Of a stretch of DNA of 64,000 nt, positions 34,812 through 39,895 are shown in pieces. This DNA comes from Stygiolobus caldivivus. Lineage in GTDB: Archaea; Thermoproteota; Thermoprotei_A; Sulfolobales; Sulfolobaceae. The position numbers and the translations under genes were made by a program. Within the stretch, counting starts at the first letter, position 1. The number at the start of each line of letters is the position of its first letter. The notes beneath the pieces were generated by a model, which saw only the letters and a list, made by a program, of their open reading frames with translations, did not search any database and was not told where the DNA came from. The stretch spans positions 1,860,001 to 1,924,000 of the forward strand of contig NZ_AP024597.1 in assembly GCF_019704315.1 (NCBI RefSeq). The letters are read 5' to 3'.

Positions 34812-34862
34812 TCACGGCGTGGGTTTATCGTCACCTTTCAGTTCTTAAGACCCCGATCATCC
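34812..34862 (-). ncRNA. Candidate C/D-box guide RNA, antisense spacer between gatB and the PRTase gene
   Basis: On the minus strand the order is ATGATCG (C-like, two mismatches to RTGATGA), a 12-nt spacer, CTGA (perfect D'), AAG, GTGACGA (C', one mismatch), another 12-nt spacer, then GTGA (D-like, one mismatch). Two exact 12-nt guide spacers match archaeal C/D sRNA geometry. The imperfect C and D boxes keep this tentative. Confidence 0.32.
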
Positions 34863-34879
34863 AAATAGTATAAAATAGG

Positions 34880-35608
34880 GTGGTGATATTTATTTCCGCC
34901 TATTCGAAAGATAAAGAATTAAGAATCAGGCTTTTAGCAGTAGATTTACTAAAAGAACTTAAGAACTCTTATACTTATAAAGAATTATCTAAGCTACTTA
35001 ACATTCAAGAAAGTTTACTGTGCAGATACGTCAACGGAAATACTATTCCAAGTGAAGTCCATTCAAAAGAAATACTTGATAAAATTAGAAATGAAGAATT
35101 CCTAATAAAGTTCTTTTACAACAAAATATCGTTTCGCGAAGACGGTTACATTGATACGTCTTCACTCTTGTTTTATCCTAATATGTTAAAAATGTTAATA
35201 GAAATATATTATCAAAAATACTTAGGAAGAAAAGAAATAAGTAAAATAGCAACTATTGCCGTTAACGGAATACCTTTTGCTACCCTAACAGCGGAAGCGT
35301 TAGCCAAGCCATTAATAATAATGAAAAAACATAAAGATTCAATACACCTAGAATATCTTGACGAAAATCTTAAAGAGTCGGAAGGGATAGTAACATCTAT
35401 TTATTTAAGGAAAGATTATATAAATAGAGATGATAAAGTATTACTAATAGACGACGTAATAAGAACCGGCACGACAATTCACGTTGCGTATAAATTACTT
35501 AGTAAAGGCGGTGCCGATGTAGTAGGGGCTATTACAATAGCTGCTGTAGGTAAAGAATGGATCAAACACGCTAACACTATAAATATCTACCCTATTTTTA
35601 GGCTATGA
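34880..35608 (+). CDS. GfcR-like HTH plus phosphoribosyltransferase-fold regulator, 242 aa
   Basis: An N-terminal helix-turn-helix (about 33-57, 'ELSKLLNIQESLLCRYVNG') is fused to a PRTase fold with the PRPP loop 'VLLIDDVIRTGTT'. This layout is shared with archaeal regulators of the PyrE-like family such as GfcR of haloarchaea, which control sugar genes. The PRPP-binding motif is intact. Here it begins a tightly packed unit of four genes ending with a riboflavin reductase: the next gene overlaps by 4 nt. GTG 34880 or GTG 34883 are equivalent starts. Confidence 0.82.
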   Translation: MVIFISAYSKDKELRIRLLAVDLLKELKNSYTYKELSKLLNIQESLLCRYVNGNTIPSEVHSKEILDKIRNEEFLIKFFYNKISFREDGYIDTSSLLFYPNMLKMLIEIYYQKYLGRKEISKIATIAVNGIPFATLTAEALAKPLIIMKKHKDSIHLEYLDENLKESEGIVTSIYLRKDYINRDDKVLLIDDVIRTGTTIHVAYKLLSKGGADVVGAITIAAVGKEWIKHANTINIYPIFRL

Positions 35609-36147
35609 TAAGCAAACTCTTATCTAACACATATGTCATAAGGGGAAATTTTCTAGTTTATCTGATAGAGATTGATGATGGGTTAGTCGTTATCGACGCT
35701 AGTGATGGGTCTGATTTATCTATAGTCATAGATGGTATATATGAAATATCTGAAAAAATTTCAAAAAAACCCAAGTTATTAATACTAACTAGTTATTTGC
35801 GAGAAGTTGCAGGTGGTGCAAATTTTTTATCTCGATTTTTCTCAATACCCGTAATTTCAAGTAAAGAAATAGCACCAGTATTAAGAAAAGGTGGAAATCC
35901 AGAGAATTCTTATGAACCAATAAATATTAGTATAGAAGTAAAGAATAAAAGTAAAGTGTTTTTAAATGATATCCTAGACTTAAATTGCTCAAGTTTAATA
36001 GAGATTATAAAGTCTAATACACCGGTTATAGGTTCTATTTTTATAAAGTATAATTCTTTATTATTTACAGGCAGTAGCGGGGTCAGTGGACTAAAAAACA
36101 AGATCAGTTATATATGTAATGCATATAACTTTGAAAAAGTGAGTTAA
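35605..36147 (+). CDS. MBL-fold-like protein lacking the metal site, 180 aa
   Basis: The N-terminal 'YLIEIDDGLVVIDASDG' fits the first beta-hairpin of metallo-beta-lactamases, and 'KLLILTSYLREVAGGANFLS' sits where the family has T-H-x-H-x-D-H. The histidines and aspartate of that motif are replaced by S-Y-L-R-E-V, and no histidine-rich replacement is visible, so it is probably a non-metal, non-catalytic derivative. It is short (180). ATG overlaps the previous stop (ATGA). Its length suggests the C-terminal half of the fold is reduced. Function unknown. Confidence 0.7.
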   Translation: MISKLLSNTYVIRGNFLVYLIEIDDGLVVIDASDGSDLSIVIDGIYEISEKISKKPKLLILTSYLREVAGGANFLSRFFSIPVISSKEIAPVLRKGGNPENSYEPINISIEVKNKSKVFLNDILDLNCSSLIEIIKSNTPVIGSIFIKYNSLLFTGSSGVSGLKNKISYICNAYNFEKVS

Positions 36148-36148
36148 A

Positions 36149-36328
36149 ATGGTATTTGAAGATAAGTGTGATAATTGTGGCAGATTTCTCCAAATAAGAT
36201 ATTGTAGCATCAGAAAAATAAACGTGTGTGTAGATTGTTGCTTAGTTTGCAATCAAAGGTCTGCATGTAAAATTAGAGTTTGGGCGTATAATTTATTACC
36301 TAAGAAACAGTCCGTGAGGCTTACATGA
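36149..36328 (+). CDS. Cys-rich mini-protein, 59 aa
   Basis: A small ORF starting ATG 36149 directly after the MBL-like gene. Cysteines are at 7, 10, 19, 27, 30, 31, 34 and 40, giving CxxC pairs 'CDNC' and 'CVDC-CLVC', the pattern of a double zinc ribbon. Its stop overlaps the ATG of the riboflavin reductase gene (ATGA at 36325-36328). Codon use looks normal and the close packing supports a real gene. Confidence 0.75.
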
Positions 36329-36978
36329 AGAATAGACCTTATATAATAATCTTTGCTACAATTACTATCGATGGAAGATTAGCTTCAAAAGATAAGTTTA
36401 GCCAGCTAAGTTGTCCTTCTGATAAGAGGAGGCAACACATACTAAGGAGTGAGGTTGATGCAATACTAGTAGGAGCAGAGACTGTAAGAGTAGATAACCC
36501 TAAGTTAACAGTGAAATATGCTAAAGGAAAAAACCCAATTAGAGTAATTATCTCAAAAAGCTTAAACCTCAATCTTGATAGCAATTTATTTAACGTACCG
36601 CCTCCTACGATAATTTATACGTCCAGAAGTAATTTGAAAGAACCTGAAAAGAAAAAGGTGATAGACGCTATAAATACTAGGGGAGTAGAAATCAGGTACT
36701 TAGATGAACTATTAATGTGCAACATTATGACAGATATCTATCTTAATAAAGGGGTAAAGAAAATTATGGTGGAAGGGGGAGGCACTACAATTTGGAACCT
36801 TATAAAGGAAAGCTGCTACGATGAAATTAGAGTTACAATTTCTCCTAGAATTTTTGGTAATGGGATCTCTTTTGCTAATGGAGAAGGGTTTATGGGAATA
36901 GACGCGCCTAAATTAAAATTAATAGACGCAAAATTGTGTGAATGTGGAGAAGAAGTCCATTTAATTTATAAAAAATAA
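36325..36978 (+). CDS. arfC: 2,5-diamino-6-ribosylaminopyrimidinone 5'-phosphate reductase (riboflavin synthesis)
   Basis: The RibD C-terminal-type reductase. It reduces the ribosylamino pyrimidine intermediate in the archaeal order of riboflavin synthesis (reduction before deamination). '[18 protein letters not shown]', '[20 protein letters not shown]' and '[18 protein letters not shown]' are the standard motifs. 217 residues. It is the last gene of the PRTase/MBL/Cys-rich unit. Confidence 0.9.
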
Positions 36979-39796: not shown

Positions 39797-39895
39797 AGCC
39801 GCCGCGGGGACTTGAACCCCGGACCACCGGCTGTACCGGGTCCTTACCAATTTGCCTTACGAGGCCGGCGCTCTACCAGTCTGAGCTACGGCGGC
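39797..39895 (-). tRNA. tRNA-Thr(CGT) with a 25-nt intron
   Basis: On the minus strand acceptor GCCGCCG pairs with CGGCGGC; discriminator T73 is usual for archaeal tRNA-Thr. Anticodon stem CCGGC/GCCGG, anticodon CGT. The 25-nt intron (39833-39857 in plus coordinates) lies after position 37; mature length 74. An AATTTTATAAGC element is 25-35 bases upstream. Confidence 0.95.

Follow-up and report, generated by a model that had tools for sequence, protein, structure and literature searches.

A compact gene set of Sulfolobaceae encoding a probable PRPP-responsive regulator, an MBL-fold protein devoid of metal ligands and a cysteine-rich mini-protein

Background

PurR of Bacillus subtilis associates an N-terminal HTH with a PRTase domain carrying a PRPP-binding loop, and the HTH of Bacillus PurR is a winged helix. 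In archaea, the idea of an HTH-PRTase regulator was put forward for GfcR, a PRTase-like activator of haloarchaea (accessible text of PMC11519228). The fold of metallo-beta-lactamases (MBLs) is shared by subclass B3 enzymes (GOB-18, BJP-1, HARLDQ proteins) and by PqsE of Pseudomonas aeruginosa. The latter retains its metal site. According to the accessible text of PMC9715718, PqsE forms a 2:2 complex with RhlR, keeps RhlR soluble and behaves as a chaperone-like partner. Among archaeal mini-proteins, TIP of Thermococcales is a PCNA-binding protein of 64 aa (accessible text of PMC4929162).

The present analysis deals with four neighbouring genes, here named A to D, of an archaeal genome of 2.96 Mb. 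They lie in the window, a stretch of 64,000 nucleotides from Stygiolobus caldivivus (Sulfolobaceae, a family of thermoacidophiles) to whose numbering all positions refer. Metallosphaera, Sulfolobus sp. UBA167 and Candidatus Aramenus are among the organisms with related loci. An original prediction had interpreted them as a PRPP/flavin-linked regulatory or sensing module. Literature searches, in which some of the locus tags used were guesses, retrieved no paper describing the A-B-C-D set. The original observation and the oddness of its parts held on analysis, whereas the flavin interpretation did not.

Organization, conservation and origin of the locus

The genes are found in the order infB-like, ndk, rpl24e, rps28e, upp, gatB, A, B, C and D, with tes, a thiL-like gene and purB on the opposite strand. 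The tes call is based on a radical-SAM match in the window and on comparison with Saci_0703, given as Tes in the accessible text of PMC8941075. The four reading frames are packed as had been described, A and B overlapping by 4 nt, B and C being separated by a 1-nt gap, and C and D overlapping at an ATGA. Overlapping genes indicate co-translation, not interaction.

Conservation of this arrangement was evaluated over 30 Sulfolobaceae loci (the window and L061-L089). Genome G179, which is 79% complete and has neither B nor C, was excluded from adjacency counts, and the contig of G183 contains no A. The A-B overlap amounted to exactly 4 nt in 26 of the 29 genomes showing both genes, the exceptions being G090, where a 355-aa reading frame lies between them, G066 (88 nt) and G167 (41 nt). 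Since B-C spacing was moreover confined to between -64 and +18 nt in all 28 genomes with C, the unit can hardly result from chance. Linkage of A-B-C, as expected from the original proposal, was thus found in all 28 genomes with C, with the exception of G183 (A off the contig) and G090 (insert between A and B), but it did not extend to D, which was beside C in 18 of 30 genomes. The coupling of A-B-C was also far tighter than that of gatB and A, of which the spacing varied from 1 to 85 nt. Two S. acidocaldarius-like genomes (genus g4) have retained A-B while C and D are gone from the locus, and no C was detected by profile anywhere else in these two genomes. A-B is the tightest pair of the set.

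Ratios of dN/dS ranged from 0.00 to 0.11 for A, 0.06 to 0.22 for B (nine informative pairs), 0.00 to 0.12 for C and 0.04 to 0.09 for D, two pairs being set aside, G146/G155 as almost identical (dS no higher than 0.05; A 0.51, B 0.41, C 0) and G000/G108 as saturated. B was the fastest-evolving gene in most pairs and is, as judged from these ratios, under purifying selection.

Family A was matched in 201 of the 250 genomes of the phylum (E <= 1e-15), 148 of them above the cut-off, a distribution indicating that it is ancient; next to it, B appears as a newcomer. B was matched in only 37 of the 197 genomes of the order although many have A, and the number of A-bearing genomes showing no detectable B counts against reading A and B as parts of one regulator. 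C was matched in 83 of these 197 genomes. In other families of the order, A, a Mrp-type ATPase, an AbrB/ACT protein, B, a DUF72 protein, C and PCNA were clustered in varying subsets. From the 55 C-bearing genomes outside Sulfolobaceae, 26 C-centred loci were fetched, and the 22 remaining after removal of four without C in the ORF call were used: AbrB/ACT occurred in 11 of them, A and DUF72 in 10 each, and B in 4. The A-B-C unit looks like a compact Sulfolobaceae operon core derived from this older gene string of the order, the inner genes having been removed. Because it resembles such a compacted remnant, adjacency in itself says little about a shared function, and the 4-nt coupling of A and B is the evidence in which we place most trust. 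The comparison with relatives indicates how the set came about and suggests, short of proof, a function for it.

The interpretation that we tentatively prefer, at somewhat less than an even chance, is that A is a PRPP-responsive regulator, B a non-catalytic partner, C a zinc mini-protein adaptor and D a passenger, the A-B-C core stemming from the older string. By analogy with Bacillus PurR, PRPP would bind the PRTase pocket of A and change its DNA binding. B, translated in a coupled manner from the same mRNA, would have given up catalysis and bind A instead, steadying or modulating this regulator as PqsE does for RhlR. C would bind two structural zincs, probably in a treble-clef-like manner, and act as an adaptor, perhaps with a partner of its own, possibly PCNA. 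D would contribute a flavin precursor without any necessary tie to A-B-C. Of the new findings, the strongest are the stepwise disappearance of metal ligands from B, the decayed PRPP loop in relatives of A that retain the HTH, and the PCNA leads for C.

The cysteine-rich mini-protein C

Gene C (36149..36328, plus strand) codes for a protein of 59 aa with the eight cysteines announced earlier (positions 7, 10, 19, 27, 30, 31, 34 and 40), six of which are arranged in the CxxC knuckles C7xxC10, C27xxC30 and C31xxC34. Residues C7, C10, C19, C27, C31, C34, C40, R37 and W45 were invariant in an alignment of 28 members, and C30 was conserved in at least 90%. By profile, C was found in 30 of the 250 genomes of the phylum, all within the order of the window. 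Pfam gave no match for the window copy; over the 28 members it returned eight families, each in at most two members (best E 0.011) and none credible, and a profile search of the PDB gave 0 matches up to E 1. Assignment of C to a known zinc family was dropped for these reasons. At the sequence level, C is a conserved Cys8 protein forming an order-wide family with no described relative in Pfam or PDB. Its structure model was poor (pLDDT 57.4), with a knuckle, a hairpin and a helix visible. A Foldseek search with this poor model found nothing below E 1 (best E 1.2, non-significant), and many treble-clef and RING entries figured in the non-significant list.

A first alternative is that C is a PCNA-binding zinc mini-protein, ancestrally located beside PCNA and left stranded behind A-B once DUF72 and PCNA had gone. 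We regard it as rather unlikely, but two observations hint at it. PCNA directly followed C in 21 of the 22 non-Sulfolobaceae loci with C called. Furthermore, 10 of 27 Sulfolobaceae C proteins, from three genera (g5, g8 and g10), end in L[DE]x[FY][FLI] (e.g. STLDSFLK, TTLEKYF), a motif found in the last 8 residues of 0 of the 318 other proteins (>=100 aa) of these loci. These tails resemble the archaeal PIP peptide KTTQSTLDSFFK given in the accessible text of PMC4929162. On the other hand, the window's C has neither a PIP-like tail nor a QxxhxxAA-like terminal motif, and the tail is missing from four other genera, so that it is a lead on the C family and not a result on the window's protein. 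In 20 of those 21 loci, moreover, PCNA is convergent with C, and conservation extends to the neighbouring block (HerA-like ATPase, f16); slow rearrangement may therefore explain the adjacency. Finally, C is absent from both g4 genomes.

The HTH-PRTase protein A

In the preferred interpretation, A is the regulator of the set. Gene A (34880..35608, plus strand) has an uncertain GTG start, since the start codons of its relatives differ around the same place. Its product belongs to the PRK08558/NF006328 family and consists of an XRE-like HTH and a type I PRTase domain. The HTH (residues 31-58, YTYKELSKLLNIQESLLCRYVNGNTIPS; 34970..35053, plus strand) includes four of the five residues that are invariant over the order, and the PRPP-binding loop corresponds to residues 187-199 (VLLIDDVIRTGTT; 35438..35476, plus strand). 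The window copy matched Pfam Pribosyltran at 49.7 bits, and its HTH match as a single sequence was below the Pfam cut-off (HTH_23, 16.2 versus 24.6 bits). Over the order, 27 proteins were aligned (17 from Sulfolobaceae and 10 others); HTH_3 was recognized in 9 of the 27 (best E 5.8e-8) and the PRTase domain in 22. The invariant columns were R17, Y33, R49, Y50 and P57, all within the N-terminal 58 residues and, from Y33 onwards, within the HTH.

The first gene had been presented as an HTH-PRTase protein with a PRPP loop; this was confirmed, the loop being intact in all 29 Sulfolobaceae copies, none of which deviates at D191, D192, G197 or T199. Elsewhere, it was lost or damaged in 8 of 10 copies, in which the HTH has been retained: one of the acidic residues is lost in L101-L104 and both are lost in L095, L097, L107 and L110, both being present only in L105 and L106. 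PRPP sensing is thus not the general role of the family, which tells against the preferred interpretation. Within the alignment, the DNA-binding half of A is the part conserved across the order, with the PRPP loop intact in Sulfolobaceae. From the N-terminal invariants and the pattern of loop loss, we infer that the lasting function of A is DNA binding and that ligand sensing by the PRTase pocket depends on the lineage. On the strength of the same two observations, A, although annotated as an adenine PRTase, is probably a regulator instead, and the window copy a probable PRPP-responsive DNA-binding regulator.

The best sequence match among solved structures was Bacillus PurR (1p4a, E 5.6e-9), and A scored below the cut-offs of the B. 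subtilis PurR equivalog TIGR01743 (51.2 versus 258.7 bits) and of PRK02277 (40.4 versus 115 bits), which we take to be the family model of GfcR. The window copy just passes NF006328, an NCBIfam equivalog named adenine phosphoribosyltransferase (186.0 versus a cut-off of 184 bits), and this counts against the regulator reading. It is also an argument for a second alternative, in which A would be a salvage enzyme (adenine PRTase) that additionally carries a DNA-binding domain, and upp-gatB-A-B-C-ribD-like-tes, accompanied by purB and often by purP, would be loosely strung housekeeping genes sharing no function. The DD-GxT loop intact in 29 of 29 copies and the presence of upp, purB and a purP-like gene as neighbours would fit this view. 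We nevertheless hold it to be unlikely, and slightly more so than a role of C on PCNA: A is conserved over the order in its HTH, which persists in copies with a destroyed PRPP loop, its closest solved relative is a repressor, and the neighbouring genes are coupled far more loosely than A-B-C, as the gatB-A spacing illustrates.

A regulator acting on its own promoter, as had been proposed for A, would be expected to have an operator upstream. A conserved 50-nt block does lie upstream of A, in the gatB-A spacer (34812..34861). On the minus strand, however, it reads as a C box, a guide, a D' box (CTGA), a C' box, a second guide and a degenerate D box. The strict C/D-box pattern was recovered in 12 loci, 11 from Sulfolobaceae (L136 belonging to the same genome as L087) and one, L101, from another family, and looser forms were seen by eye in other genera. 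Under the fifth-nucleotide rule for C/D-box guides, the D' guide matches 8 nt in the anticodon loop of tRNA-Leu(UAA), which puts U34 five positions ahead of the box. The D guide fits the T arm of tRNA-Leu(UAA) over 9 nt, with a GCGTGGG core common to Leu tRNAs in L205, L208 and L211. The block gave no match in Rfam; judged by its boxes and guides, it is probably a C/D-box sRNA with two guides, encoded on the strand opposite to A.

Other readings of the block were dropped. A plus-strand hairpin seen by eye (GGGUUU with AAACCC) was abandoned, genus g3 having retained the boxes and not the pairing partner. So was rRNA as the guide target, only two 9-nt matches occurring in 7.5 kb around the 23S gene and neither being placed as the guide rule requires; a search of the window's own genome with the SSU rRNA family found nothing. 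An operator of A in its own promoter was discarded as well, as the spacer block better fits the opposite-strand sRNA, and the obvious operator candidate is thereby removed. In the 7 genomes of genus g5, only 1-20 nt separate gatB from the start of A, which leaves no room for a promoter. Both observations make it doubtful that A targets its own promoter.

The MBL-fold protein B

Gene B (35605..36147, plus strand), starting at an ATGA within the 4-nt overlap with A, codes for a protein of 180 aa. It matched Lactamase_B at 21.0 bits, just below the cut-off of 22.7, and gave a profile match to 5k0w (E 5.5e-14). The best of five AlphaFold models, built on a 7-row alignment, had a pLDDT of 89.2 and a pTM of 0.88, the five spanning 89.2 to 51.6. 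With this model, Foldseek returned B3 MBLs first (7luu, E 3.0e-10), and VIA-align superposed 6dr8 and 6dqh with a Z of 20.3 (rmsd 2.2, 171 residues aligned) and PqsE chains with a Z of 19.3 (rmsd 2.7, 173 aligned). The model lets us assign the MBL alpha-beta/beta-alpha fold to B with confidence. PqsE is only one among many MBL-fold proteins at the same Z, which counts against the PqsE analogy, as does the metal that PqsE retains.

The absence of HxHxDH from B, on which the original prediction insisted, was borne out: this position reads SYLREV (S63-Y-L-R-E67-V68, residues 63-68; 35791..35808, plus strand). A complete metal site was found in 0 of 30 Sulfolobaceae members, the ligands retained being H116 in 0, H118 in 1, D120 in 7, H121 in 0, H196 in 0, D221 in 2 and H263 in 0 of them. 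Canonical MBLs of the order (n=4) each have 7 of 7 ligands. Syntenic B proteins of other families (n=6) display H116, H118, H196 and D221 in five cases and D120, H121 and H263 in none; in the remaining one (L118), all seven ligands are missing through an independent loss. Since these syntenic relatives keep the zinc-1 ligands and not those of zinc-2, the zinc-2 site was lost first and the zinc-1 site later. Going by these alignments, intermediates deprived of only the zinc-2 ligands exist at the matching gene-string position in neighbouring families.

A third alternative, which we consider improbable, is that B is not dead and has another active site, e.g. with conserved Cys and Glu/Asp residues (TSC..E, RxGxC, C-terminal CxxxxxC), making it a new type of MBL-fold enzyme or one with other metal ligands. 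LTSC, RKGxC and YICxxxxC segments are kept in many Sulfolobaceae, and the dN/dS range of B is that of a maintained protein. Yet the 27-row alignment of B contains no invariant column, and the window's B displays Y64, G97-N98 and just one C-terminal cysteine.

The reductase D

Preference remains with a non-catalytic B acting on the regulator A, D being a passenger. Gene D (36325..36978, plus strand), the start of which overlaps C, codes for an archaeal 2,5-diamino-6-(ribosylamino)-4(3H)-pyrimidinone 5'-phosphate reductase; the riboflavin reductase initially predicted was recovered with TIGR01508 (218.6 versus a cut-off of 186.45 bits), a model matched by a single copy in 30 of 31 family genomes. 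It is an ordinary enzyme and a variable member of the unit, adjoining C in g1, g3, g6, g7, g8 and g10. Its stand-alone copies (11 loci fetched) had mixed neighbours and no obvious rib genes. Outside Sulfolobaceae, D was near C in 0 of the 22 C-bearing loci (stretches of roughly 12 kb). In the D tree (29 of 30 copies, the stand-alone D of G155 being absent), stand-alone copies of g2, g4 and g5 formed one clade (99/98) and the g9 copy fell outside, while the Tes tree separates these genera, placing g2 with g3 and g4 with g1. The simplest reading of these trees is that D stood ancestrally at the locus and that several genera subsequently acquired a transferred copy in its place. Being loose and showing signs of replacement through transfer, D does not need A-B-C, nor A-B-C D, and the flavin link is weak; it was abandoned as main idea after the census, neighbours and tree of D. 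A PRPP/flavin module for regulation or sensing, made up of all four genes, is very unlikely: D does occur at the locus in 18 of 30 genomes from six genera, probably its ancestral place in the family, but it lies elsewhere in 12 of 30 with no rib neighbours, seems to have been replaced by the transferred clade in g2, g4 and g5, and was not seen near C in the 22 loci outside the family.

Significance and comparison with described systems

For A, the present data argue that an archaeal family annotated as adenine PRTase mainly comprises DNA-binding regulators. For B, they provide a dated series, at one matching genomic position, from a canonical MBL through a zinc-2-less form to a ligand-free one; how catalysis was abandoned and a different role acquired can therefore be tested in Sulfolobus and Saccharolobus strains, which are convenient in the laboratory. 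A bolder proposal, which must be seen as a long shot, would have A-B-C link nucleotide supply to replication, A reading PRPP and controlling transcription, the pseudo-MBL B serving as its allosteric partner and C docking on PCNA. If true, the operon would serve crenarchaea as a means of coupling precursor level to clamp traffic, and B would clearly exemplify the conversion of an MBL enzyme to a regulatory subunit via a traceable one-zinc intermediate.

With TIP, some relatives of C share the status of lineage-restricted archaeal mini-protein and a putative PIP motif; this motif is N-terminal in TIP, for which the accessible text of PMC4929162 describes no cysteine cluster. With subclass B3 metallo-beta-lactamases, B has the fold, a profile match and a Z of about 20 in common, and differs from them, in the window, by the loss of every metal ligand. 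PqsE has the same fold and acts on a transcription factor by binding (accessible text of PMC9715718), but its gene context is not that of B and identity is 10% over 173 residues. With GfcR, A shares the principle of an archaeal HTH-PRTase regulator, and it is set apart by its low PRK02277 score. B. subtilis PurR resembles A in its N-terminal HTH and its PRTase domain with a PRPP loop; unlike PurR, A would bind DNA through an XRE-like HTH (HTH_3) and has B and C as partners in its operon.

A probable sRNA, a tRNA gene and the start of the first gene

The spacer between gatB and the gene of the HTH-PRTase protein (34880-35608, plus strand) probably encodes, on the minus strand (34812-34861), a C/D-box sRNA with two guides. 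Both guides match tRNA-Leu: one is placed on U34 in the UAA isoacceptor, the other on the T arm. The block is kept across several Sulfolobaceae genera and is also present at a locus of another family (L101); it had no match in Rfam. Rfam did detect a tRNA gene at 39797-39895 on the minus strand (58.2 bits), probably intron-containing and missing from the ARAGORN listing for the window.

The annotated GTG start of the HTH-PRTase gene is tentative: a ribosome-binding-like stretch, GGTGAT (within 34860-34900), overlies it, and the gene's relatives start at TTG or another codon shortly 3' of this position.

Variation among related loci

Eight relatives of this protein in neighbouring families (L095, L097, L101-L104, L107 and L110) have a decayed PRPP loop and a retained HTH and are putative pseudo-PRTase regulators. 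Regarding the MBL-fold protein (35605-36147, plus strand), a syntenic homolog of another family (L118:5781-6365, plus strand) has lost all seven metal ligands (H116, H118, D120, H121, H196, D221 and H263), independently of the loss in Sulfolobaceae. A 355-aa ORF inserted between these two genes in genome G090 (L073) was the sole such break among the Sulfolobaceae loci compared.

PIP-box-like C-terminal tails, absent from the window's own eight-cysteine mini-protein (36149-36328, plus strand), were found on its counterparts in three genera (L068-L072, L075, L078, L080, L086 and L088).

Finally, the riboflavin reductase (36325-36978, plus strand) was compared with stand-alone copies (L146-L156). 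Those of genera g2, g4 and g5 formed a single clade conflicting with the Tes comparison tree, suggesting replacement of the gene through transfer in these genera.
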